A DNA stretch of 64,000 nt, taken from Thermodesulfovibrionales bacterium. GTDB lineage: Bacteria; Nitrospirota; Thermodesulfovibrionia; Thermodesulfovibrionales; SM23-35. This document shows positions 1,577-63,202 of the stretch, piece after piece. Position numbers and translations under genes: made by a program. The stretch lies in contig JAVHLL010000003.1 of NCBI GenBank assembly GCA_031082155.1, forward strand, positions 16,621-80,620, in the 5' to 3' direction. The notes under the pieces are model-generated. The model was not told where the DNA came from. It did no database searches and saw only the letters and a list, made by a program, of their open reading frames with translations. Position 1 is the first letter of the stretch; the number at the start of each line of letters is the position of its first letter.

Positions 1577-2368
1577 ATGGTAAGAAAAATCGGTTGTGTC
1601 ATTTTTGCAATTTTATTGATAACGGTCATGGCTGGCTGCCAGAAAGCGGAACAGCCTGCTGAAAAACCTGTAGCTGAGGTAAAACATGAAGTGCATTGGG
1701 GGTATGAAGGAGAAGGTGCGCCTGCCAATTGGGGTAAATTAAAACCTGAATATGCACTGTGCGGTACAGGTAACGCACAGTCTCCTATTAATATCGACAA
1801 GACATACAAGACTGCACTGGATTCCATAGCGTTTTCGTACAAGCAGACACCCTTGAAAATCGTCAATAACGGCCATGCTATTCAGGTGAATTGTGAACCG
1901 GGAAGTTCAGTAATGATAGACGACGCAAAATTTGAACTGCTCCAGTTCCACTTCCATGCGCCGAGCGAGCATACGGTACAAGGCAAATTCTATGATATGG
2001 AAATGCACCTAGTGCATAAGAACCAGAGCGGCGACCTTGCGGTAGTAGGCGTGTTCATGAAGAAAGGACAGCCGAATAAGATCATACAGGTCCTCTGGGA
2101 CAATCTCCCGACAGAAGTGAATAAGGAAAATGTTGTACAGGGAATCTCAGTCGATGCTTCAAGCCTCCTCCCAAAAGACAGGGGTTATGTTCATTATTAT
2201 GGGTCCCTCACCACTCCTCCCTGCAGTGAAGGAGTCAACTGGAGTGTGATAAAAGCTCCGATCGAGGTTTCAGAGGAGCAGATACAGAAATTCAGGACAC
2301 TCATGGGTCTGGACAACAACCGTCCCGTGCTGCCTGTTAATAAAAGATTTGTCCTGGATTCAAAATAA
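1577..2368 (+). CDS. alpha-class carbonic anhydrase, predicted lipoprotein
   Basis: HWGYEGEGAPANWG..., QSPINI, FHFHAPSEH and GSLTTPPCSEGVNW motifs; lipobox MAGC. Confidence 0.93.
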   Translation: MVRKIGCVIFAILLITVMAGCQKAEQPAEKPVAEVKHEVHWGYEGEGAPANWGKLKPEYALCGTGNAQSPINIDKTYKTALDSIAFSYKQTPLKIVNNGHAIQVNCEPGSSVMIDDAKFELLQFHFHAPSEHTVQGKFYDMEMHLVHKNQSGDLAVVGVFMKKGQPNKIIQVLWDNLPTEVNKENVVQGISVDASSLLPKDRGYVHYYGSLTTPPCSEGVNWSVIKAPIEVSEEQIQKFRTLMGLDNNRPVLPVNKRFVLDSK

Positions 2369-2402
2369 GAAGAGCGTCTCTTCAGGGACGCTATAAAGAG
2401 AA

Positions 2403-2435
2403 AAGGGCGGGAAACACTTCCCGCCCTTATTTATT
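2403..2435 (+). terminator. Rho-independent terminator after carbonic anhydrase gene
   Basis: AAGGGCGGGAA-ACAC-TTCCCGCCCTT followed by ATTTATTT. Confidence 0.85.
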
Positions 2436-2482
2436 TCCCTATCCAGGCATACTCTGCATAACGACATAGATAGCAGCGCACA

Positions 2483-2582
2483 TGTCATTCCCGCAAACCG
2501 GTCCCGAACGCTTTCGGGATTCGGGAGGTCAGGAATCCTTCTTTAAAAAAACATGAAAGATTCCGGACAAGCCTGAATGACA
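2483..2582. repeat. MITE-like/intergenic palindromic repeat, about 100 bp
   Basis: Terminal TGTCATTC/GAATGACA inverted repeats, internal tcccgaa-cgc-tttcggga palindrome. Confidence 0.55.
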
Positions 2583-2630
2583 GCTTATACGAGCACAGTA
2601 TAAGAAGAATTTCATAGTGCTTTATATAAT

Positions 2631-3911
2631 TTACTTTTTGTGTGTTGCCCTCATTGTTTGTTCGAGTTCCTTGATATTCCCAAGGTCTTTGACCATCATC
2701 GCCCAGCCATACCAGTAGGCGTAATCGGGGTTGACGTGGAAGAAAGCCTGGTATGCTCTCATCCTATGTTTCATGTACATCTGAAACAGTACCTGGTCTA
2801 TGTACGAAAGCTTATTCGTATCGCCTCCGCCTGTTTGCATGAAGTACAGAAAGTCCGGATATGCAAAAGAGTATTTGTCAGGCTTTTTGATAATCCCGTC
2901 TTTGTAGAGACCTGCAACTATCTCTATTGCTTCGGCAAGGAGCCGGTCTGACTTCTGCATTATGGAGTCGCCCATTGCAAGTTGTTCACGCGCATACTGT
3001 GAGGAATGGCATTGACTACAAATCTTTATCATTTTTTCACGTTCGCTTTTCCATGCCTCCTCGGTAAGTCTAACCATGTCCACCGACTTTACCGCTTCAA
3101 GTCGTGCAGTCGGCTCGCCAGTATGGGGGTTAAGCACTCCGAGGGCTTTCAGGATAGTAATCCTGTCGGTTTTCCATTGAGCATCTTCAGGCAGCGGCAA
3201 TCTTACGCCAAGGAACCCCCATGCCGTTCTGTTCTCATGGCTTCCGTCCTGCATATGACAATCCTGACATTTTGGGGCCGGAGCGTCTGCCGGGAGATTC
3301 CCTGAATCCCTGGCGTGCCATCTCGTTCCGTGTTTTGCACTGCTCCACATCTCCCATTGGGGATGGTCGTACCCCATATGGCATTGCTGACAGGCTCTGG
3401 GATCAAGGGCTTCTTTTTTGGAAAATGTATGCCTGGTATGGCACTCATCACAGGAATTGTTCTGATAGCGATACCCTTTGTCACGTTGTTCCTTTTTCTG
3501 AGCCACGGTCTTGATCCCCATGTTGTGACATCCACCGCACCCTCTTCCCCCTTCCATAAGCTCATCGGGTTCCACATGAGTGATGGGCAATGCGTTCAAC
3601 GATGTCCAGCCGAAATTGTGTTTTCCTTTTGCAAATTCATCAAACTGCTTCTTATGACACTGAGCGCAGAGGGGTTCATCCGGCAGCCCGGCAAGTTTTA
3701 CATTCTGCGGCCCGTTGTGTTTGTCCCCATGACATGTTGAACAGCTTACCCCCTTCTTGCTATGGCTGCTCGCTTCCCAGTCTTTCACCAGTCCCGGTGT
3801 GATACCCCGATGGCAGTTGACGCAGGATTCTGCATCTGCTGATGGTGCATCCAGGAACCCAAGGCAGGAAAAGAGAAGAGAAAAAGATACAAAAATGAGC
3901 AATTTTTTCAT
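2631..3911 (-). CDS. octaheme c-type cytochrome, hydroxylamine oxidoreductase (HAO)-like
   Basis: Signal peptide; eight CxxCH motifs counted in the translation; C-terminal YWYGWAMMVKDL region as in HAO-like proteins. Confidence 0.8.
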   Translation of the reverse strand: MKKLLIFVSFSLLFSCLGFLDAPSADAESCVNCHRGITPGLVKDWEASSHSKKGVSCSTCHGDKHNGPQNVKLAGLPDEPLCAQCHKKQFDEFAKGKHNFGWTSLNALPITHVEPDELMEGGRGCGGCHNMGIKTVAQKKEQRDKGYRYQNNSCDECHTRHTFSKKEALDPRACQQCHMGYDHPQWEMWSSAKHGTRWHARDSGNLPADAPAPKCQDCHMQDGSHENRTAWGFLGVRLPLPEDAQWKTDRITILKALGVLNPHTGEPTARLEAVKSVDMVRLTEEAWKSEREKMIKICSQCHSSQYAREQLAMGDSIMQKSDRLLAEAIEIVAGLYKDGIIKKPDKYSFAYPDFLYFMQTGGGDTNKLSYIDQVLFQMYMKHRMRAYQAFFHVNPDYAYWYGWAMMVKDLGNIKELEQTMRATHKK

Positions 3912-4225
3912 AAGCCCTCCATAATTCTTTAATCTATATGGTTGAATTTTAACATGATATCGCTCTCTTTTGGTAATTAGTCACAGGTCATCCTGGTTTT
4001 CCAGACTTTCCATATATTTCCGATAAAAATCCGGCCCCGGGTTTCCATCCGGAAGCGTTAGGAAGATGAATGGTAAATTCTTTGTCTTTGATAACATCAA
4101 GGGAAAGGGTAATGTGAGGAAACCAATCTTCCGTGGCACTTGACAAAAAAATTATAATTTGATATTTGATAAGAAGAGGGAAGGGGGTTTTCCCTCGCGG
4201 CAAAATTCCAGTAGCAGGAACAAAG

Positions 4226-4528
4226 ATGTTTGATCAGAGAAAACAAGAGCGTTTTGATATTTCCTGCCCGATTGAATATGTGGTAGATTCTTTTCAATCT
4301 GATGTTCTTTGTGAAGGAATTGCAGTTAATATCAGCAACTCCGGCCTGTGTCTCCTTACCTCTCATTCCTTTACTGAAGGACAGGAAATTGCCATAAAGA
4401 GTATTTTCCCGATACCGTTGCCTTCTGAGGCAGCGTCGGTAGTCTGGGTTGAAAAATCTGCTGATTTTTCTGTGAAAACAGGATTGTCTTTTTCACGGGC
4501 GAATCGGCTTGCGAATCCCTTTTGCTAA
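4226..4528 (+). CDS. PilZ domain protein
   Basis: QRKQERFDISCPIEY...NISNSGLCLLT...GQEI pattern. Confidence 0.75.
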   Translation: MFDQRKQERFDISCPIEYVVDSFQSDVLCEGIAVNISNSGLCLLTSHSFTEGQEIAIKSIFPIPLPSEAASVVWVEKSADFSVKTGLSFSRANRLANPFC

Positions 4529-4753
4529 AATAACCTGCAGAAGTTTTGATCGCATGTCCAATATTTTTTTCCCGTAAGTCGCACCTTACGCTTATTTCTG
4601 CAGTTTACTGAGGGAAATAGGTTCCATTTGGGATGAATGGAGAAGCGGTGAGCGCATTTTTGTATTGAGAGATACAAGGATTAGAAGAATAATGGAGTGC
4701 AGGAGAGAAATGATTCTCCCATCACTACGAACAATATGTATGAGAAACGCATA

Positions 4754-6250
4754 ATGAAAGCCCTGCTCATCTATCCAAAATTCCCCGACACTTTCTGGAG
4801 TTTTAAACATGCCCTCAAATTCATCTTGAAAAAGGCAAGCAGTCCGCCTCTCGGCCTGTTGACTGTTGGCGCGATGATTCCTGAAGCATGGGAGAAAAAA
4901 CTGGTCGATATGAACGTGGAAACGCTGAATGACGATCATCTCAGATGGGCTGATATCGTTTTTCTCAGCGCAATGTCTGTGCAGAAGGAATCGGTGAAAG
5001 AAGTGATCGCACGATGCAAGGCCGTTCGCGTAAGGATTGTCGCCGGCGGTCCTCTTTTTACGACCGAAGATGAACTATTCCCGGATGTAGACCATTTAGT
5101 GCTAAATGAGGCTGAAATTACTCTGAAGCGTTTTCTGGAAGATTTCGAACAAGACTGTGCCGGCCATCTTTATACGACTGATCGATGGGCAGACATACGG
5201 ACGACGCCCATACCGCTCTGGAGGCTCATCAACATAAAACGCTACGCTACCATCAATATCCAATATTCACGGGGGTGCCCCTATAACTGTGAATTCTGCG
5301 ACATAACCCTGCTCTGCGGAAGGACGCCGCGCACAAAGGATAAGGATCAGGTCATCAGGGAACTCGAAAGTATTTATGCGCGTGGGTTCAGGGGAGGAGT
5401 GTTCTTTGTTGACGATAATTTTATCGGAAACAAGAAAAAGCTTAAAGAAGAGATTCTCCCTGCTGTTGCCGGATGGATGGAGAGAAAAAAACATCCTTTC
5501 TCCTTCGAAACCCAGGCATCCATCGAACTGTCTGATCACGAAGACCTGATGCAGCTGATGGTGAGGGCGGGATTCGATACTGTCTTTGTGGGCATAGAAA
5601 CCCCGAATGAGCAGAGCCTTGCAGAATGCAGCAAGCTCCAGAACAGGAACCGCGACCTTCTCGGTAGCATAAGGAAAATCCAGCAGGCCGGTCTTGAAGT
5701 ACAGGGGGGATTCATCGTCGGTTTTGACAACGACCCCGTTACGATATTCGATACCCAGATCAGGTTTATCCAGAAGAGTGGGGTTGTGACCGCCATGGTT
5801 GGCCTCCTCAATGCGCTTCCGAGGACGCAGCTCTATAACAGGCTTGAAAAAGAACGGCGGCTGGTGAAAGAAACGTCCGGGGACAATACTGATTTCTCGA
5901 TCAATTTCATCCCGAAGATGAACTATGACATACTGATCGACGGCTACAAGAAAATACTCAGCACCCTGTATTCACCCAGGCATTACTATGAAAGGGTCAG
6001 GACATTCCTGAGGGAATACATCCCCCCGCAGAAAAAAATGTTTCATTTCCGTTTCAACCATCTTGCCGCATTCTTCATGTCTGTTATCGTTCTCGGGATA
6101 ATTGGGAAAGAGAGGTTCCATTATTGGGGACTTCTCTTCTGGACCGTATTCAAACGTCCGCGGCTCTTCCCGCAGGCTGTCACCCTTGCAATCTACGGGT
6201 TTCATTTCCGGAGGATTTTTGAGAAACACCTGCACGGCACAGCCTGTTAA
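4754..6250 (+). CDS. B12-binding domain radical SAM protein with DUF4070-like C-terminus
   Basis: N-terminal MKALLIYPKFPDTFWSF...; radical SAM CPYNCEFC cluster motif; FFVDDNF, GGFIVGFD. Confidence 0.85.
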   Translation: MKALLIYPKFPDTFWSFKHALKFILKKASSPPLGLLTVGAMIPEAWEKKLVDMNVETLNDDHLRWADIVFLSAMSVQKESVKEVIARCKAVRVRIVAGGPLFTTEDELFPDVDHLVLNEAEITLKRFLEDFEQDCAGHLYTTDRWADIRTTPIPLWRLINIKRYATINIQYSRGCPYNCEFCDITLLCGRTPRTKDKDQVIRELESIYARGFRGGVFFVDDNFIGNKKKLKEEILPAVAGWMERKKHPFSFETQASIELSDHEDLMQLMVRAGFDTVFVGIETPNEQSLAECSKLQNRNRDLLGSIRKIQQAGLEVQGGFIVGFDNDPVTIFDTQIRFIQKSGVVTAMVGLLNALPRTQLYNRLEKERRLVKETSGDNTDFSINFIPKMNYDILIDGYKKILSTLYSPRHYYERVRTFLREYIPPQKKMFHFRFNHLAAFFMSVIVLGIIGKERFHYWGLLFWTVFKRPRLFPQAVTLAIYGFHFRRIFEKHLHGTAC

Positions 6251-6395
6251 GGGAATGTGTTCAATATAAAAATAAATTCCCTTTGTGAACGATCGTGCTT
6301 TTCTCTGACTATAATGTTCTCATGAAATTCGGAACTGAAGCATCCGCCATATTTGTCCTTGTCAATCCGCAATTCTCAAGGCTATAATAAACGTT

Positions 6396-8468
6396 ATGCG
6401 TGTTTCCTATGAATGGCTGAGAGAGGTTGTTGCTATTGCTGCGCCGCCTGAAGAAGTTGCCGACAGGCTTACTATGATCGGGTTTGAAGTGGAAGGAACG
6501 GAGCCGGCAGCGGGCGATACTGTCTATGAAGTGAATGTCACTCCGAACAGGCCGGATTGTCTGAGTATCATTGGGCTTGCACGGGAATTGTCTGCGATAT
6601 ATAATGCTCCGCTGAAGGTGCCGGAACACGGAATATCCGGGGAACAACCGGCCTCTGATTTCACCGTCGAGATCGTGAATCCCGACCTCAGCAACCGGTA
6701 TACGGGGCGGGTGATTACCGGAGTCACTATCGGGGAGTCGCCCGAATGGATACGGTCAAGGCTTGAAAAGTGCGGAATACGCTCTATCAACAATGTGGTC
6801 GATATCACCAATTATGTGCTCATGGAATTCGGACATCCGCTCCATGCGTTTGATTCTGATACACTCAGGGACAAAAAGATTGTTGTCGGCACCCCGGATA
6901 CGGTGAAAGGAAGGGGTGCACAGGCAAAGATAAAAACCCTCGACGGCACGGACCGCGGGATACCAGGTGATTCGCTTCTCATCTGGGATGCTCATGACCC
7001 CGTTGCAGTGGCAGGCGTAATGGGTGGCGCGGAGACGGAAGTAAAAGAGAAAACAAAAAATATCTTCCTTGAAAGCGCATATTTCGATCCTCTGTCCATC
7101 AGGAAAACATCAAAGACATTGGGTCTCTCCAGTGAGTCCTCCTACCGGTTTGAGAGGGGGACGGACATAGAATTTCTCGAAAAAGCGCTTGACCGTGCGG
7201 CGTTTCTCATTAGCCGGACCGCAGGCGGTATAGTCCACAAGATTATCGATGTGTATCCAGTAAAATATATTTCCGAACCTTTTGAGGTGAGGTATGCGCG
7301 GATAAACAGGATTCTGGGCACTGATATCTCTTATCCTGATATGCTTGCCATACTGAAGAACCTGCTTGTCCCCACAGAAGACAGGGGCAAAACTTTTGTG
7401 GTTCATGCACCCCCGCACAGGCGTGACCTGAAGGGAGAGAACGATATCGCCGAAGAGGTCGCACGGATATACGGGTTCAATAACATCCTCACCACGGCGC
7501 CGGGAAGCCCCCTCTCTTCCAGGGGAGTGAACCGGAGAACTACGAATCTCAGGAATATCCGCGGAGCGATGAGGAAAGCAGGCTTTTCAGAAGTGGTCAA
7601 TTACAGTTTTATGAATACTGCAAGTCTCGATCTCCTTGGAATATCCGAAGCAGACATGAGGCGGAGAGCGGTCAGCATCTGCAATCCGCTGAGTCAGGAC
7701 CAGGGTTTTTTAAGAACTACACTTGCTCCGTCAATGGTCGCTAACCTTGTCTATAACCTCGACAGAGGCATGGGGGATGTCAGGTTATTCGAAACAGCAC
7801 ATATTTTTTTGTCTGCTGGTGAAACACTTCCGAAGGAGGAGTTGCACCTGGGAGGGATTTTCTACCGGGACAGATCGCCTGCGCTCTGGAGCGAGCAGGC
7901 ACACCCGTTCTATATCGTGAAAGGCGCGCTCGAATCCCTGTTCCAGGAGTTCAAGATAAGGAATATCAGATTTCTTCCAACCGGAGAGCCGTTCCTGCAC
8001 AGAGGGCAGTCGTCAGATATCCATGTTGACGATGCAAGGCTCGGATATCTCGGTGTCCTTGCCCCGGAGGTTGTGGAAACCCTTGATCTCAAAAAACAGA
8101 AACCGGAAATCGTCCTCTTCGAGTTGAACCTTGACGGACTCCTCCCCGCAATCCCTGAGACGATACTGTATCGTGCTGTCCCCAAATATCCGTCTGTTGA
8201 GCGAGACATCGCACTGGTAGTGGATGAAACCCTTCAATCGGGGTCTCTTGAGGAGATCATCAGGTCTTTTCCCACAGACCTTATCGAAGACATTGCCGTC
8301 TTCGATTTTTACAAGGGGAAGAACATTGCCGAAGGAAAGAAAAGCCTTGCCTTTAATATCATCTACCGCTCCGGCGAACGGACACTCACAGTTGAAGAAG
8401 TGGAGCAGCTCCATGCATCCCTCGTCGAATACCTGATCGGAAAGACCGGCGGGGAGTTGAGGAAGTAA
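6396..8468 (+). CDS. pheT: phenylalanine--tRNA ligase beta subunit (short form)
   Basis: VNVTPNRPDCLSIIGLARE, B5 and B3/B4 regions, C-terminal FDX-ACB domain (PKYPSVERDIALVVDE). Confidence 0.93.
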   Translation: MRVSYEWLREVVAIAAPPEEVADRLTMIGFEVEGTEPAAGDTVYEVNVTPNRPDCLSIIGLARELSAIYNAPLKVPEHGISGEQPASDFTVEIVNPDLSNRYTGRVITGVTIGESPEWIRSRLEKCGIRSINNVVDITNYVLMEFGHPLHAFDSDTLRDKKIVVGTPDTVKGRGAQAKIKTLDGTDRGIPGDSLLIWDAHDPVAVAGVMGGAETEVKEKTKNIFLESAYFDPLSIRKTSKTLGLSSESSYRFERGTDIEFLEKALDRAAFLISRTAGGIVHKIIDVYPVKYISEPFEVRYARINRILGTDISYPDMLAILKNLLVPTEDRGKTFVVHAPPHRRDLKGENDIAEEVARIYGFNNILTTAPGSPLSSRGVNRRTTNLRNIRGAMRKAGFSEVVNYSFMNTASLDLLGISEADMRRRAVSICNPLSQDQGFLRTTLAPSMVANLVYNLDRGMGDVRLFETAHIFLSAGETLPKEELHLGGIFYRDRSPALWSEQAHPFYIVKGALESLFQEFKIRNIRFLPTGEPFLHRGQSSDIHVDDARLGYLGVLAPEVVETLDLKKQKPEIVLFELNLDGLLPAIPETILYRAVPKYPSVERDIALVVDETLQSGSLEEIIRSFPTDLIEDIAVFDFYKGKNIAEGKKSLAFNIIYRSGERTLTVEEVEQLHASLVEYLIGKTGGELRK

Positions 8469-8580
8469 AGAGAGTACACCCTGCATCGCAGCTGACACTG
8501 CAAGCATCATACACAAGATGCAATACTATAGTGTTCATCGGGCCTGTCTGAAATAGATATTTCAATCTGCAAGGCACTCA

Positions 8581-8744
8581 GGGATATGACTCGTTTTTCA
8601 AATCGCAATCACGGGTAATCTTGATGAGACCGAAGACGAAGCGGAGGTCTCAGCCTTCCATGTTCTACTCCCATTCAAATCAAGAAAAGGTGTTCACAGA
8701 AACAAAGGCAGTTTATTGCGATTTGAAAAATGAGTCATATCCCG
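8581..8744. repeat. intergenic element with 29-bp near-perfect inverted repeats
   Basis: GGGATATGACTCGTTTTTCAAATCGCAAT (8581-8609) versus reverse complement at 8716-8744, one mismatch. Confidence 0.8.
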
Positions 8745-8763
8745 ATCCCCGTTCTCCCTTTCC

Positions 8764-8808
8764 TTGACATTCCGCGCAGGATATGCATTAATAGAAATGG
8801 TTTCTATT
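8764..8808 (+). promoter_or_regulatory. promoter with overlapping Fur-family operator
   Basis: TTGACA-N17-ATTAAT with extended -10 TGC; palindrome AATAGAAA-TGG-TTTCTATT at 8790-8808. Confidence 0.65.
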
Positions 8809-8825
8809 TACATTTGGGGGATTCA

Positions 8826-9266
8826 ATGCTTCGCGACTTTCAGACGGTTCTGAAAAAATTGCATCTCAAAGTGACCCCGAAGCGGCTTGCCATACTTGAG
8901 ATCCTCAAGAACGAGTCAGTCTACCTGAGCCCCGAGGAAGTATGGAGGAAGCTCAGGAAACAGTTCTCGCGGGTGGGCCTTCCGACAGTTTACCGCAATC
9001 TGGAGGAACTTGCCCAGGGCGATGTCATCTCGAAAGTTACCCACCCGAACCGACAGTTGTATTATTACTTCTGCCTGAATCCTTCCCATCATCACCATTT
9101 TATCTGCCTCTCCTGCAGGACTGTTGAGGATATAGATTTCTGCATGTTTCGTGAACTGGAGAAGAGGGTGAAACAGGAACTGAAGGGCAGGGTTGTCTCC
9201 CATATCCTTCAGGTGAACGGGTTATGCAAAAAATGCCTGAAGAAAGACGGGGAAAGTCATGCATAA
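8826..9266 (+). CDS. zur: Fur/Zur family metalloregulator
   Basis: Fur-family winged helix (TVYRNLEELAQGDVISKV), HHHHFICLSC zinc site; adjacent to zinc ABC transporter genes; start chosen after the operator. Confidence 0.8.
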   Translation: MLRDFQTVLKKLHLKVTPKRLAILEILKNESVYLSPEEVWRKLRKQFSRVGLPTVYRNLEELAQGDVISKVTHPNRQLYYYFCLNPSHHHHFICLSCRTVEDIDFCMFRELEKRVKQELKGRVVSHILQVNGLCKKCLKKDGESHA

Positions 9267-10209
9267 GGCTGCACAGGCGCTTATTCTCTTCCTTTGTATA
9301 GCTCTCGCTTGCCCGGTCATTTCATGCAGGCAGAAAAGTACAGGGGACGGTGCAGGAAAGAAACTTATTGTGGTAGCAAGTCTGTTCCCTCTCTATGATT
9401 TTGCAAGGAATATCGGGAAGGAGAAAGCCGAGGTTATTCTCCTTCTCCCTCCCGGAGTCGAACCGCACAGCTACGAACCTAGCCCGGGAGATGTCCTGAA
9501 GTTGCACGAAGCAGATATTTTCCTCTTCACCGGAGAGGCAATGGAACCGTGGATCGGGGATATCCGGAAGGAGATCCGCGGGGAGAAACCCCTGATTGTT
9601 GATACAGGGAAGGGAATCAGAATGACCGGCGGTCATACAGACCGCGAGGAAGACGACCATGACCACGGAAGGCAGGACCCCCATATCTGGCTCGATTTTT
9701 CGAATGCACAAAAAATGGTCGATACAATTCTTGAAGGTTTTGTACGGGCTGATCCTTCAAACAAAGAATTCTATATGCAGAATTCTGAAGCGTACAAGCA
9801 GCAATTACAGGGGCTGGACAGGAAATATTCCGGTTCCCTGGCGTCCTGCAAAAAACGCATTCTTATTCACGGAGGGCACTTCGCCTTCGGCTATCTCGCG
9901 GGAAGATATAATCTTCAGTACCTCTCGGCGTATCAGGGCTTTGCGCCTAATGCCGAGCCGACCCCGGGGAATCTGATTGAACTCGTAAAAAAACTCAGGG
10001 ACAGTAAGCTACAGTTCGTGTTCTATGAAGAACTCATTGTACCACGGGTGGCGGAGACGATAGCGGAGGAAACCGGTGCAGGCCTTCTCAAGCTCAATGG
10101 CGCCCACAATGTAACAAAAGAAGAACTTGCGCAGGGCGTTACGTTCATTTCCCTCATGGAACAGAACCTCGAAAACCTTAGGAGGGGGCTCGAATGCCAG
10201 GAGAGATAA
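9259..10209 (+). CDS. znuA: zinc ABC transporter substrate-binding protein
   Basis: Signal peptide/lipobox; PGVEPHSYEPSPGDV; acidic His loop HTDREEDDHDHGRQDPHIWLD. Confidence 0.88.
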   Translation: MHKAAQALILFLCIALACPVISCRQKSTGDGAGKKLIVVASLFPLYDFARNIGKEKAEVILLLPPGVEPHSYEPSPGDVLKLHEADIFLFTGEAMEPWIGDIRKEIRGEKPLIVDTGKGIRMTGGHTDREEDDHDHGRQDPHIWLDFSNAQKMVDTILEGFVRADPSNKEFYMQNSEAYKQQLQGLDRKYSGSLASCKKRILIHGGHFAFGYLAGRYNLQYLSAYQGFAPNAEPTPGNLIELVKKLRDSKLQFVFYEELIVPRVAETIAEETGAGLLKLNGAHNVTKEELAQGVTFISLMEQNLENLRRGLECQER

Positions 10210-10949
10210 TCACGGTCCAACACCTGAACTGCAGATACAATTCTGTGGAAGTGTTGAGCGATATCTCTTTTGCAGTACAGTCCGGAGACTACGTCGGATT
10301 TGTAGGCCCAAACGGGTCAGGGAAAACAACCCTTGTCAAGGCAATCCTCAGGCTGATCAGGCAGGAGAGCGGAACAGTATCGCTCTTCGGGAAAGGTCTG
10401 GGACAATTCACCGAGTGGTTCAGGATTGGTTACCTGCCCCAGAAACTTAGTTTCCTGAACCCGAATTTTCCTGCAACGGTAAAAGAAGTCATCTCGCTTG
10501 GACTATTTGCGAAGAAGAAGTTTCCGAAGCGCCTTGAAAAATCAGACCGGATATTGATTGACGAAGCCATGAACCTTATGGATATAACCGATATCAGAGA
10601 TGCCCTGATCGGCGAACTTTCAGGCGGCCAGCAGCAACGGGTGCTTGTTGCGAGGGCAATAGTAAACGGGCCGGAACTCCTGATTCTCGATGAACCTACA
10701 ACCGCTTTTGATCCCGAGGCACGTGAACAGTTCTATCATACCCTTCAGAATTTGAACAGGAACAGACAAGTTACAATTATCCTTGTTACCCACGACAGTG
10801 CGACGATAGGGAAATATGCATCCAAACTCCTCTATCTTGACAAGAAAGTCATCTTCTTCGGCAGTTTCGACGCCTTCTGCACCTCTGAACACATGACGTC
10901 CTATTTCGGTGAATTTGCACAACACCTTATCTGTCACAGGCATGATTGA
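10194..10949 (+). CDS. znuC: zinc/manganese ABC transporter ATPase
   Basis: Walker A GPNGSGKTT, LSGGQQQR, Walker B LLILDEP; overlaps znuA. Confidence 0.9.
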   Translation: MPGEIITVQHLNCRYNSVEVLSDISFAVQSGDYVGFVGPNGSGKTTLVKAILRLIRQESGTVSLFGKGLGQFTEWFRIGYLPQKLSFLNPNFPATVKEVISLGLFAKKKFPKRLEKSDRILIDEAMNLMDITDIRDALIGELSGGQQQRVLVARAIVNGPELLILDEPTTAFDPEAREQFYHTLQNLNRNRQVTIILVTHDSATIGKYASKLLYLDKKVIFFGSFDAFCTSEHMTSYFGEFAQHLICHRHD

Positions 10950-11772
10950 TATGGATATGCTCGGTGCGCTTCAGTATGAATTCATCCGGAGGGCAATCAT
11001 CGCGGGATCGTTCATCGCGCTGGTCTGTTCGCTTCTCGGGGTTCTCCTTGTGCTCAGAAGATACTCGCTTATCGGGGACGGTCTTGCACACGTGACGTTC
11101 GGGAGCGTAGCCCTCGGCCTATTCCTGAAACAGCATCCGCTTTCTGTCGCCATACCGGTCGTAATGGTGAGTTCACTCGGTATCCTGAAGTTGACACAGA
11201 AAGCGAAAATATACGGAGACGCGGCAATCGGCATCGTCTCATCGCTCGGTATCGCGCTGGGGGTTCTCATTGCAAGTTTATCCGGCGGATTCAACATTGA
11301 CCTGTTCAGTTTTCTCTTCGGCAACATCCTCTCCATTACCGATATTGAAGTGTACACGTCCATCGGGCTCTCTGTGGCGGTCCTGTTCATGATCATCTTT
11401 TTCTATAATGAACATCTGTCCGCCACTTTCGATGAAGAGTTCGCGCGGGTTTCCGGGATAGATACGGAAAGGATAAACACGCTCCTGGTTCTCCTGACAG
11501 GAATAACCGTGGTGCTCACCATGAAAGTAGTAGGCATCATGCTTACCTCGTCACTGCTCATACTCCCGGCTGTCACCGCACTCCAGTTTGCACAGGGGTT
11601 CAAGGGCACCATGGTGATATCCTCATGTGTTGCAGTAGTATCAGTCATTACAGGAATTTCTCTTTCCCTACTCCTGAATATTCCTACTGGTGCTACGATT
11701 GTTCTCATGAACTTCATATTCTTTGCCTGTGCCTTTTTATACCGGCATATCTCCCAGAAGGGCCTGCACTAA
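10942..11772 (+). CDS. znuB: zinc/manganese ABC transporter permease
   Basis: ABC-3 family permease, multiple TM helices, GDGLAHVTFGSVALG. Confidence 0.9.
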   Translation: MIDMDMLGALQYEFIRRAIIAGSFIALVCSLLGVLLVLRRYSLIGDGLAHVTFGSVALGLFLKQHPLSVAIPVVMVSSLGILKLTQKAKIYGDAAIGIVSSLGIALGVLIASLSGGFNIDLFSFLFGNILSITDIEVYTSIGLSVAVLFMIIFFYNEHLSATFDEEFARVSGIDTERINTLLVLLTGITVVLTMKVVGIMLTSSLLILPAVTALQFAQGFKGTMVISSCVAVVSVITGISLSLLLNIPTGATIVLMNFIFFACAFLYRHISQKGLH

Positions 11773-11961
11773 CCCTGAACCTGTATTCTGAAAGAACAGC
11801 CATCGTTCATACCATACAGTAATTTTGAAATATCTCGTCATTCCCCGACTTGATCGTGAATTTCCTGTCTTTTCAATAGGTTATGGGTCATCCGGTCAAG
11901 CCGGAGGATTACAAAACACTCCTCTACGAACGACACTCAATAGAATGCTCCTGAAAAACTG

Positions 11962-12060
11962 TTGACTTCAAATCTCCCCTGTGCTAATCTGAAATTAGTT
12001 ATCTGAGCCACGAAGGCTTGAACAATGACCAGCAGGTCAAAAAGCTTTCGGGGCTTTTTT
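11962..12060 (+). ncRNA. candidate short structured RNA or attenuator leader with own promoter and terminator
   Basis: TTGACT-N17-TAATCT extended -10 promoter; hairpins AGCC-acgaa-GGCT, TGACC-agca-GGTCA; AAAGC-tttcggg-GCTTTTTT terminator. Confidence 0.45.
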
Positions 12061-12175
12061 ATTGCCCGGGAAAGGGGAAGCCGTGATGCAAAAACGCTTC
12101 TGATATCAATAAAGCACCCTCGTTGCCCTGCAACTACTGTGGAAGATTTTTAATGAATATATTCAGGAGGGAACT

Positions 12176-13306
12176 GTGAAACAAACAAAAAACAGACCGA
12201 TAAGTTTATTATTCTTTTTTGGCATTTGCCTGTTCTTTATCCTCACAAATAGAGTTTCAGCCTACGACGTGAACGAAAAATTGTCCGTAGAGGGCATGCT
12301 GACCGGAATATATCAGCATGCAGATGTGGGCGGAGAAGGCACAGATGATGCCGGAAGGGGAGCTGCGGGAATGGCTCTCGGGATGAATTTTCATCCGACA
12401 GACAAAGACGAATTCCAGGCAACGCTTAGTTTCGGAGCAGGAAACGGGCTGAATTATCTGGGTCTTTTTTCTCTTTCTCCCTATGCAGGTGACCTTGAGG
12501 ACGACCTTAAGGATATCAACGGAAGGAACAGGGATTACCTGCTCGAAGCTTGGTACAAACATACATTCTTTCTCTCTGAGAATGCAACCCTGGGGATAAT
12601 CGGAGGCATTATCGATTCGACTTCATATATCGATGACAATACCTTTGCTAACTGCGAGCGCAGCCAGTTTATGAATGAGGCCTTTGTGAACCATAGGAAC
12701 GTGAATTTGCCTTCCTATGACCTTGGCGGAGTAATCGAGCTGGATGTTTCAAATTTTACCATACGAGCACTTGCGATGAACTCGAAATTCGAGTCAGGTG
12801 ATGATGAATTCACCAACTATAATTATTACGCAGTCCAGGCAGGATACAAACTCGTTACCGTTTTTGGAGAAGGCAACTACAGGGTATACGGATACACGAC
12901 AAACGACCGTTTTCAATGTCCGGACGAGGTGGAAAAAGGAAGTCTGCAGGGGCTTGGGATATCGGCTGACCAGAAGTTGAGCGAAATCGTGGGTATCTTT
13001 TTAAGGGCCAGCTGGCAGGATGATGAAGCGGTGATTGATCACGACAAAGTCTATTCCGGCGGGATGAACATCAACGGCAAGCTCTGGGGCAGAGAGAATG
13101 ATGAAATTGGTGTTGCCTATGGATTTCTCGACGGAGCATGCGGCTCGGATATCGACCGCACGGTTGCAGCGGAAGCCTATGTGAGAGTGCAAGTCTCTCA
13201 ATTCAGCGATCTTACGCTTGATCTTCAGTATATCGATGATGATCTGAAAATGGATGCGGACCGTGATGGATTTATCTACGGAGTAAGGGCGAATGCGTAT
13301 TTCTGA
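12176..13306 (+). CDS. outer-membrane porin-like (OprB-like) beta-barrel protein
   Basis: Signal peptide, long alternating beta-strand pattern, aromatic C-terminus (NAYF). Confidence 0.6.
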   Translation: MKQTKNRPISLLFFFGICLFFILTNRVSAYDVNEKLSVEGMLTGIYQHADVGGEGTDDAGRGAAGMALGMNFHPTDKDEFQATLSFGAGNGLNYLGLFSLSPYAGDLEDDLKDINGRNRDYLLEAWYKHTFFLSENATLGIIGGIIDSTSYIDDNTFANCERSQFMNEAFVNHRNVNLPSYDLGGVIELDVSNFTIRALAMNSKFESGDDEFTNYNYYAVQAGYKLVTVFGEGNYRVYGYTTNDRFQCPDEVEKGSLQGLGISADQKLSEIVGIFLRASWQDDEAVIDHDKVYSGGMNINGKLWGRENDEIGVAYGFLDGACGSDIDRTVAAEAYVRVQVSQFSDLTLDLQYIDDDLKMDADRDGFIYGVRANAYF

Positions 13307-13357
13307 ACGTACAAAAGAAAATATAGGACAACAATCTAGACTGAGGAGGCAAATACT

Positions 13358-14404
13358 ATGCATATGGCAGATGCGTTACTCTCTCCCGCAGTAGGTGGCG
13401 CACTCTGGGCCGGGACGCTCGGGACCATTATTTTATCTGCAAAGAAACTGACGGCAAAGATGGACGACAAACTTATCCCCCTTATGGGGGTCCTCGGTGC
13501 ATTCATCTTTGCGGGACAGATGATTAATTTCACCATACCCGGAACGGGGTCAAGCGGGCATATCGGAGGCGGAATGCTCCTCGCAATTCTCCTGGGACCC
13601 TATCCCGCATTTCTCGTCATCGCATCTGTTCTCATGATACAGGCCCTTTTCTTCGCCGACGGGGGGCTGCTCGCCCTTGGAGCGAACATCTGGAACCTCG
13701 GGATCTATCCCTGTTTCATCGGGTATCCACTGATTTACCGGGTTCTGGTGGGAAACAACAAATCACCGAAAATAATAACCCTTGCATCGATTCTGAGTGT
13801 GGTCGTCGCTCTCCAGATCGGAGCCCTGTCTGTCGTTCTTGAAACGCAGCTTTCGGGGATTACCGAACTTCCACTCAATACATTCCTCGCACTTATGCAG
13901 CCTATACATTTGGCCATTGGCCTGATTGAAGGGTTTGTCACTGCCGGTATCGTCATCTATGTCCGGTCTCTCAGACCTGATATTGTGGAAGACCTTGAGG
14001 GTGTGAAATCTGTTGCTGCAGGAGGTTCGATAAAGAAGGTGCTCATTGTTATGGCAATACTCGCGGTGATTACCGGCGGAGCATTTTCATGGCTTGCCTC
14101 AACAAATCCGGACGGGCTTGAATGGTCGATTGAAAAAATATACGGGAAACCCGAGGTGCCGGTACAAGAGAATCCGGTAAGTGAAAATCTCTCTAAACTC
14201 CAGGAGAAAACAGCCATTCTCCCTGACTATGCCCTCCCTTCCAGGGGGGGTGAAGAGAATACAGAAAATCCTCCTTCTTCCTGGCCGGCAGTTGACCCGG
14301 GCACCTCGCTATCAGGTATTATAGGAGGCTTGATGGTCCTTGTATTGATAATACTTTTTGGATTCGGGATTAAATTTATGAACAGAAACAAAGCAAAGAT
14401 GTGA
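13358..14404 (+). CDS. ECF nickel/cobalt transporter S component, CbiM/NikM with fused PDGLE (NikN-like) domain
   Basis: MHMADALLSPAVGG N-terminus; TNPDGLEWSIEK motif. Confidence 0.9.
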   Translation: MHMADALLSPAVGGALWAGTLGTIILSAKKLTAKMDDKLIPLMGVLGAFIFAGQMINFTIPGTGSSGHIGGGMLLAILLGPYPAFLVIASVLMIQALFFADGGLLALGANIWNLGIYPCFIGYPLIYRVLVGNNKSPKIITLASILSVVVALQIGALSVVLETQLSGITELPLNTFLALMQPIHLAIGLIEGFVTAGIVIYVRSLRPDIVEDLEGVKSVAAGGSIKKVLIVMAILAVITGGAFSWLASTNPDGLEWSIEKIYGKPEVPVQENPVSENLSKLQEKTAILPDYALPSRGGEENTENPPSSWPAVDPGTSLSGIIGGLMVLVLIILFGFGIKFMNRNKAKM

Positions 14405-51144: not shown

Positions 51145-51309
51145 ATGAAAAAGGAACAGCAAACAAAGAAACGAAAAGAAAAGGACAAAAAATTATCTGA
51201 AACCTCTTCAACAGGGGTTCTCAATATCTGTTCGAATGCCTCCTGCCGTCTGAGAAAAGCAGGATGCATGGGTTTCGAGGGATGTCCGGGATATAAGGCA
51301 CGGGCATGA
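51145..51309 (+). CDS. 54-aa Cys-rich small protein (CX4CX6CX5C)
   Basis: MKKEQQTKKRKEKDKKLSETSSTGVLNICSNASCRLRKAGCMGFEGCPGYKARA; stop overlaps start of the next gene (ATGA); below track length cutoff. Confidence 0.6.
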   Translation: MKKEQQTKKRKEKDKKLSETSSTGVLNICSNASCRLRKAGCMGFEGCPGYKARA

Positions 51310-52430
51310 AGAAGCACCTTGTCCTTGTTGGCGGTGGTCATGCCCACCTCGCCGCTCTAATGAAACTGAGGGATTACACCGACAAGGGACACAGGGTAAC
51401 CCTGATTAGCCCTTCAGCCTATCATTATTATTCCGGTATGGGTCCGGGGATGTTGTCCGGGTTCTATGAGCCCGCAGAGATACGGTTCCATATCAGCAAG
51501 ATGGCAGAAGCCCGCGGAGCTTCTTTTATGGCAGACCCGGTCATCAGGATAGACCCCGCGAAGAGGATGCTCATGCTGCAGTCAGGCGCGCGGGTCCGGT
51601 ACGATGTCGTATCTTTCAATATCGGGAGCGGTATCCGGATAGATGACATCGTGCTTTCCGGGCGAAATGTTTTTCCCGTGAAACCTATCGAGAACCTTCT
51701 GAGAGCAAGAGAGTATATTCTGGAAGTGTTCAAAAAAAGAACTGCACACATACTCATCGCCGGTGGCGGACCAGCAGGGCTTGAAATATCGGCGAATGTC
51801 TGGAGACTCATGCATGAGAACGGACTCACCGGGGAGCTTACCGTACTCTGCGGGGGGAGGATGCTGGAACATTTCCCAAACGCGGCACGAACCATAGCAT
51901 TGAAGTCACTCAGGGAACGGGGCATCACAGTCCTCGAAAACGTTTCCCTCCGGTCACTGGAAAACGGCAAAGCAACATTCACTGACGGCAAAACGACTGA
52001 CTGCGACGTTGCGTTTCTCGCTACCGGCACAAAACCGCCGTTCATTTTTCATGAATCCGGTCTCGAAACCGGTCAGGATAAGGGACTGCTGGTGAATGCC
52101 TGTCTCCAGAGTGTCTCATACCCTGAGATATTTGGCGGAGGTGACTGCATCAGTCTCCGGAACCACCCCCTTCCGAAGGTGGGAGTGCATGCGGTAAAGG
52201 AAAGCAGCATCCTGTATCACAACCTTTACGCAATGCTTGAAGGAGGAGAACTGATGAAATACAGACCCCAAAAGAACTACCTGCTGATCTTCAATCTTGG
52301 AAATGGGAGAGGGTTGCTCTGGAGGCAGTCTTTTGTGACAAACGGCAGAGCAGCTTTCTGGCTGAAGAATTATATCGACAGGAAGTTTATGCGGAAATTT
52401 CAGGTTTCGGGTGAACTTGAAGAGAAGTGA
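51306..52430 (+). CDS. FAD-dependent NADH dehydrogenase-like oxidoreductase of the type found fused to SelD
   Basis: VLVGGGHAHLAALMKL...HYYSGMGPGMLSGFYEPAEIRFHI; second dinucleotide fold HILIAGGGPAGLEIS; FGGGDCISL. Confidence 0.8.
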   Translation: MKKHLVLVGGGHAHLAALMKLRDYTDKGHRVTLISPSAYHYYSGMGPGMLSGFYEPAEIRFHISKMAEARGASFMADPVIRIDPAKRMLMLQSGARVRYDVVSFNIGSGIRIDDIVLSGRNVFPVKPIENLLRAREYILEVFKKRTAHILIAGGGPAGLEISANVWRLMHENGLTGELTVLCGGRMLEHFPNAARTIALKSLRERGITVLENVSLRSLENGKATFTDGKTTDCDVAFLATGTKPPFIFHESGLETGQDKGLLVNACLQSVSYPEIFGGGDCISLRNHPLPKVGVHAVKESSILYHNLYAMLEGGELMKYRPQKNYLLIFNLGNGRGLLWRQSFVTNGRAAFWLKNYIDRKFMRKFQVSGELEEK

Positions 52431-52442
52431 GAGGGAATACCT

Positions 52443-53282
52443 GTGGGTATATTGAACTATTTTAAGCCTGTTTCCGTAATGACCGCGGAGGAGGTAAGGG
52501 AATTCCTGAAAAAGAGAAATCCGGGAGAGTACAATCTCGTTGACGTGCGGCAACCCGCTGAATATGAAAAGGAACATATCCCCGGCTCACAGCTCATTCC
52601 CCTCGGAGAACTTCGCGAACGCATCAATGAGATTGATCCATCCAAACCCACGATCGCCTATTGAGCGGCAGGTGTCCGCAGCCGTGCTGCTGCATCGACG
52701 CTGAAAGAAGAGGGGTTTGACAAGGTCTACAGCATGGAAGGGGGCATCCGTGCCTGGGGCGGCCTTCTCGCCGAAGGGGCTCCTGAAGCCGGCATGGCCT
52801 ACTTCCCTGATACCGCCGGACCAAAGGAGATGATCGGCCTCGCATGGATACTTGAAGAAGGCTCACGGAGATTCTATTCAGAACTTGCCGGCATACTGAA
52901 GGATGAAGAGGGAATTGCAATATTCCACGATCTGACCGCTGCTGAAGAACAGCATAAGACATCTCTCATGGATTTATTGCAGGACATCTCAGGAGAAGAA
53001 ACCGCAGAGGATATCCCCGGTTCTCTTGCAGGACCGGATGAAATCGGAGATGTCATGGAGGGCGGGATGCGCGTTAGCCAGGCGCTGCGCTGGACCGAGG
53101 GAAAACCGCTGGAGAGGATACTCGAGTTTGCGATCTCCCTTGAGTCGAATGCGTATGATCTCTACATTAAAATGGGGCGCAGGGTAAGGGATGAAAAATC
53201 AAAAAAAGTGTTTGCCATGCTTGGAGAAGAGGAGAAACGGCATCTCGGAAAACTGGCTTCCCTACTTGAACGGAAGCTATAG
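52443..53282 (+). CDS. rhodanese - rubrerythrin-like (ferritin-like diiron) fusion with in-frame UGA at catalytic Cys; candidate selenoprotein
   Basis: Frame 52443-52661 (…SKPTIAY), TGA 52662-52664, then AAGVRSRAAASTLKEEGFDKVYSMEGGIRAWGG… in the same frame through 53282; C-terminal E…EExxH helical repeats. Confidence 0.8.
52669..52703 (+). promoter_or_regulatory. SECIS-like stem-loop immediately 3' of the in-frame UGA
   Basis: CAG-GT-GTC-C-GCAGC-(CGUGCU)-GCUGC-AUC-GAC-G-CUG; apical loop begins 18 nt after UGA with G at second position. Confidence 0.55.
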
Positions 53283-63079: not shown

Positions 63080-63202
63080 AGGTTTCCGAAAAAGGTAAAC
63101 CCTGGGTAACCAGGGGGCACAAAGCCACGGATCCTGCCTTGCCGGTTTCACTCCTTCAGAAAAGGGAGTGTGAAAGGGGGGAAGGACAGCCGGGTTTCCG
63201 AA
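63080..63202 (+). ncRNA. GEMM-I cyclic dinucleotide riboswitch aptamer
   Basis: AAAGGTAAACC-CTGG-GTAA-CCAG-GG...CACAAAGCCACGG ... GACAGCCGGGTTTCCG core; GNRA-type tetraloop helix. Confidence 0.85.

Follow-up and report, generated by a model that had tools for sequence, protein, structure and literature searches.

A stand-alone relative of the SelD-fused flavin domain adjoins a probable selenocysteine-containing rhodanese–rubrerythrin gene in a Thermodesulfovibrionales bacterium

Selenocysteine (Sec) rhodaneses and flavin domains fused to SelD are both already known (PMC13188914, PMC2398784, PMC4561486). The role of the commonest SelD-fused flavin domain has been described as not fully clear (PMC2398784), and the SelD part of the published Ndh–SelD fusions is almost always of the Cys type (PMC4561486). 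In the literature outside subscription journals, we found no paper joining selenoprotein, rhodanese and rubrerythrin, none naming the family TIGR03169, and none reporting a rhodanese–rubrerythrin Sec protein paired with a flavoprotein.

Such a pair was identified in a 64,000-nt stretch of contig JAVHLL010000003.1 (hereafter the window), which belongs to a 2.65-Mb genome (G000). The original prediction, made from the letters alone, described a stand-alone flavoprotein resembling the SelD-fused flavin domain next to a rhodanese gene with an in-frame UGA, and read the two, together with a diiron domain, as a compact selenium/sulfur-handling operon. The features discussed below are as follows (window positions).

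51145–51309, + strand: tentative candidate for a Cys-rich small protein of 54 aa, overlapping by ATGA with the start of the flavoprotein gene; genus only
51306–52430, + strand: stand-alone FAD/NAD(P)-binding oxidoreductase in a clade with the Nterm_to_SelD (TIGR03169) group, NDH-2-like fold (profile, tree, fold)
52443–53282, + strand: rhodanese–rubrerythrin fusion with one UGA read through, 279 aa
52497–52757, + strand: rhodanese domain, residues 19–105 (PF00581, E 1.4e-21)
52662–52664, + strand: UGA (codon 74) in place of the catalytic Cys of the rhodanese (homologue comparison)
52678–52693, + strand: SECIS-like hairpin GCAGC-CGTGCT-GCTGC, 16–31 nt downstream, counted from the UGA's first base (UGA/Cys homologue comparison)
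52821–53276, + strand: four-helix diiron (rubrerythrin-like) domain, residues ~127–278 (PF02915, E 1.2e-13; model pLDDT 91)

The flavoprotein and its relationship to known flavoenzymes

The predicted reading frame and its peptide were confirmed as an intact, unfused FAD/NAD oxidoreductase of 374 aa that begins with ATG, and its stop codon is followed after 12 nt by the GTG start of the rhodanese–rubrerythrin gene. The profile search for which the original prediction had called returned TIGR03169 "Nterm_to_SelD" as the top NCBIfam match (E 7.1e-82, 275.6 bits, 361 residues), followed by TIGR04369 and then by far weaker matches to reductases. Judged from these scores, the likeness to the SelD-fused flavin domain is far beyond chance, though it falls below the curated cut-off of 310 bits. 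The entire flavoprotein clade scores ~243–299 bits against TIGR03169, and the next-best scores in four fully scanned genomes lie below it, at 92 bits or less. The gene is conserved, since another genome of the genus carries a copy with 89% identity and orthologues of other genera are 49–61% identical.

In a tree of 41 rows, which included E. coli Ndh and NDH-like rows and contained no SQR or FSP1 row, the flavoprotein clade was recovered with support of 100/98. Together with a genuine Ndh–SelD fusion of 752 aa (genome G540; TIGR03169 475 bits, SelD 303 bits) and other TIGR03169-type proteins, it formed one branch (100/99) that left E. coli Ndh and the NDH-like rows outside, and the inner order is less certain because some rows have long branches. 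The kinship originally predicted is thus upheld by profile and tree, and the placement that was to speak against it, among sulfide:quinone reductases (SQR) or NDH-2 enzymes with no SelD-linked relatives, was not the one obtained.

The flavoprotein carries FAD and NAD(P) motifs and no redox-active Cys pair. It holds four cysteines, and kinship with SQR, for which at least two conserved redox cysteines would be expected, is disfavoured because C281 in the FAD-site GGGDC is the sole conserved Cys among 86 clade sequences. The predicted fold (pLDDT 88.5) most closely matches NDH-2 enzymes (TM ~0.9), which are the nearest solved structures by sequence as well, and SQR structures are also among the fold matches.

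Similar to the Nterm_to_SelD proteins, the flavoprotein has a full-length profile match, the same fold and a tree branch shared with a true fusion; unlike them, it stands alone, scores below the cut-off, belongs to its own clade with the motif YYSGMGPG instead of YSGMLPG, and never lies near selD in 80 loci. With NDH-2 and FSP1/AIFM2 it shares the fold, the FAD and NAD(P) motifs, the lack of a catalytic Cys and the C-terminal helix, but it falls outside the NDH-2 branch and has a conserved rhodanese partner. CoADR-RHD and NAD(P)H-dependent persulfide reductases likewise couple an FAD/NAD reductase to a rhodanese domain, whereas here two separate proteins, another flavoprotein subfamily and an added diiron domain are involved, and no counterpart of the CoADR active-site Cys was seen.

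Elsewhere, TIGR03169-like flavoproteins adjoin TIGR04282/TIGR04283 arsenosugar-type glycosyltransferases in two phyla (locus L066 of genome G166, 2147–9740; locus L215, a Burkholderia glumae plasmid, 3638–6092), and ArsS is also encoded near such a flavoprotein in G166. A search of every locus recovered the small Cys-rich upstream ORF in this genus alone; its substitutions relative to the sister genome number 1, 3 and 7 at codon positions 1, 2 and 3, so it may perhaps be a real small protein.

The rhodanese–rubrerythrin partner and its UGA codon

Both the rhodanese with UGA at its catalytic position and the diiron domain foreseen in the neighbour were recovered by profile search. The sequence around the UGA reads TIAY-U-AAGVRSRAAA, and the four-helix domain contains candidate diiron ligands in an E, ExxH, E, ExxH pattern (E138, E168–H171, E234, E264–H267) as in rubrerythrins; E138 and H171 are invariant among partner homologues, and E168, E234, E264 and H267 are conserved in at least 90%. 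The protein ends at residue 279 without a C-terminal rubredoxin domain, and it contains no Cys, or second Sec, besides Sec74 that could resolve a selenenyl-sulfide. It resembles the described UxxG rhodanese selenoproteins (forms 2 and 4; PMC13188914) in having Sec at the catalytic position followed by xxG, and differs from them in its fusion to a rubrerythrin-type diiron domain and its pairing with a flavoprotein.

UGA occupies the catalytic position in 41 distinct homologues, against UGC or UGU, thus Cys, in 48. The complete 5-bp hairpin stem (16–20/27–31 nt after the codon) is present in 35/41 UGA versus 4/48 Cys homologues (p 4e-14), GCT encodes the second Ala of RSRAAA, nine codons past the UGA, in 35/41 UGA versus 9/44 Cys genes, and the mean hairpin energy in the SECIS window is −11.2 versus −7.0 kcal/mol; these are raw statistics in which relatedness of the homologues is not accounted for. 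Among eight Sec/Cys row pairs chosen from the tree, the energy contrast was weaker and ran in the expected direction in five. The folding difference is confined to the hairpin window, being absent from two flanking control windows. Folded alone, the hairpin of our window is not significant (z −1.34), and the weight of this SECIS-like element comes solely from the Sec/Cys comparison.

The genome encodes selA, two selB, two Sec-type selD and a tRNA-Sec(UCA). Because the SECIS-like hairpin tracks the UGA genes and this machinery is present, the UGA very probably encodes Sec. The catalytic residue alternates repeatedly between Sec and Cys: on the tree, the Sec-plus-flavoprotein label forces at least seven changes across supported branches, and labels of Sec or Cys by linkage change 17 times in total.

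A second selenium gene set, with selB, is located on contig C35 of this genome (C35:110000–128000, 6600–14016). It also contains a double-cubane reductase with its activase, a Sec-type selD, YedF, a cysteine desulfurase and a tRNA-Sec-like tRNA with a GCA anticodon and U73, which resembles the published selC* tRNA-Cys (PMC7609411). A GCA tRNA of this kind adjoins one of two selB copies in four other genomes (G093, G094, G105 and G106), and such a tRNA may deliver Cys or Sec to unusual codons.

Conservation of the gene pair and distribution of selD

The neighbourhoods of 80 named flavoprotein relatives were surveyed with flanks of up to 6 kb, as the contigs allowed; nine loci were truncated and 71 were not. 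These relatives come mostly from Desulfobacterota (assigned by title or taxon) and Nitrospirota, alongside Acidobacteriota and Aminicenantes records. Conservation of the flavoprotein/rhodanese pair, raised in the original prediction as a check, was strongly positive: a rhodanese–rubrerythrin gene lies beside the flavoprotein in 51 of the 71 untruncated loci, downstream in 43 (gaps typically 16–60 nt) and upstream in eight. Across several bacterial groups, mostly of anaerobes, it is rhodanese–rubrerythrin with which the flavoprotein has a conserved association.

Several observations count against a functional module. The remaining 20 untruncated loci, flanked by 0.9 kb or more on each side, have no adjacent partner; the two genes are unlinked in the Nitrospirota genomes G162–G168; and several genomes carry rhodanese–rubrerythrin without the flavoprotein, 22 of them only in the Cys form. 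Within the order of our window, the flavoprotein is present in 12/15 genomes with the Sec form versus 0/22 with only the Cys form. In Desulfobacterota it often adjoins a Cys-form partner, and about half of all paired partners are Cys rather than Sec proteins. The Desulfobacterota pairs therefore indicate an association with a rhodanese–rubrerythrin lineage, not with Sec as such.

No consistent third neighbour accompanies the pair across loci, and LemA-like, MntP-like and ZIP-like genes (named by eye from sequence) recur in only 5–8 loci. The locus matched no known anti-phage defence model and no phage DNA. In the sister genome G098 (locus L056, 2128–2440), the rhodanese–rubrerythrin gene lacks residues 39–211 and its frame is broken, with the flavoprotein intact; this loss is either a real deletion or an assembly error. 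A c-di-GMP-I riboswitch aptamer (60 bits) was also identified at 63084–63202 of the window.

None of the 80 relatives has selD in the examined flanks, and none is fused to it; the listed SelD copies in the window's order are stand-alone. Six plasmid-borne SelD genes were also fetched, and none proved to be a fusion. In genomes G570 and G456, SelD is encoded in open frames of ~745 aa that have no in-frame stop and are unfused to the flavoprotein; these are possibly NifS–SelD fusions. selD is near-universal in the phyla concerned, passing the cut-off in 150 of the order's 177 genomes (152 at E 1e-25) and in 346/395 genomes of the Desulfobacterota sample. The suggested test of co-occurrence consequently discriminates little: near saturation, selD occurs in 55/56 flavoprotein-positive versus 441/514 other genomes (p 0.005, with genome completeness as a confounder), an excess that completeness bias can explain. 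The only flavoprotein-positive genome without selD, G355, carries a UGA-form rhodanese, and its selD is therefore probably missing from the assembly.

Possible function of the pair

We tentatively favour, at a little short of even confidence, a two-gene redox module in which an NAD(P)H-driven flavoprotein reduces a Sec/Cys rhodanese–diiron enzyme for persulfide and/or peroxide chemistry. This reading builds on the observed family, phylogeny, intactness, adjacency, Sec/Cys interchange, SECIS-like element, Sec machinery and conservation of candidate diiron ligands, from which we infer electron flow, substrates and joint action. NAD(P)H is probably the electron donor of the flavoprotein, which would hand the electrons to its partner either directly or by way of a quinone or small thiol, and the Sec (Cys in other species) of the single-domain rhodanese would serve as a sulfane-sulfur carrier. 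Without any Cys besides Sec74 the partner cannot form an internal selenenyl-sulfide, and it counts against the module that a thiol or the flavoprotein would have to do the resolving; the natural reading would be a rhodanese-typical sulfane-sulfur (Se–S) intermediate resolved from outside, for which the flavoprotein is a plausible reductant, having FAD and NAD(P) motifs though no redox Cys pair. Chemistry with peroxide or O2 is suggested by the diiron domain, and the likely job would be persulfide and/or peroxide reduction in anaerobes living with sulfide. In support, rhodanese-joined FAD reductases of other systems, CoADR-RHD and persulfide reductases, act on persulfides.

Selenium handling, in which the flavoprotein would reduce selenium species to feed a separate SelD as presumed for the Ndh–SelD fusion, is unlikely. 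Grouping with a genuine fusion, the selD excess in flavoprotein-positive genomes and a selenoprotein partner in the source genome are in its favour, but selD is missing from all 80 neighbourhoods, Cys forms make up about half of the partners, the flavoprotein occurs in only ~10% of sampled genomes of two groups in which most have selD, and SelD here is of the Sec type, not the Cys type usual in published fusions. The label "SelD-associated" thus holds for family kinship and finds no support as a functional tie. Likewise, tight linkage, the UGA rhodanese and the diiron domain bear out part of the proposed selenium/sulfur operon, whereas its selenium-handling part is weakly supported, and a redox module for sulfur/peroxide chemistry is the better reading of the pair.

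An ordinary membrane NADH:quinone oxidoreductase of the NDH-2 or FSP1 type, with a neighbour that is no partner, is quite unlikely: its nearest solved structures, C-terminal helix and lack of catalytic cysteines would fit, but full support separates the flavoprotein from NDH-2 and the neighbour is conserved in most untruncated loci. It is still more improbable that an SQR-like or CoA-persulfide-reductase-like enzyme makes or uses persulfide on its own cysteines. The rhodanese partner and the SQR fold matches would suit such an enzyme, against which stand the single conserved Cys at the FAD site and the Ser of YYSGMGPG at approximately the position (judged by eye) where CoA-disulfide reductases have Cys. 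Although the standard code yields two ORFs, a real stop at the UGA, leaving a truncated rhodanese and a separate diiron ORF, is hardly credible given the recurrence of UGA or Cys at this position, the SECIS-like hairpin and the complete Sec machinery.

The sulfur/peroxide pair looks like an undescribed two-part redox module. More specifically, and with greater reserve, the flavoprotein might serve a Sec/Cys-interchangeable rhodanese–diiron enzyme as its dedicated NAD(P)H reductase, the two constituting a previously undescribed system by which anaerobes reduce persulfides/peroxides; if so, this would also suggest a role for the flavin domain in Ndh–SelD fusions. A stand-alone clade with a different conserved partner provides a testable entry point to the function of that domain, and repeated Sec/Cys switching in one gene pair supplies naturally matched comparisons for exploring the reasons that selenium is employed at a site of sulfur transfer.
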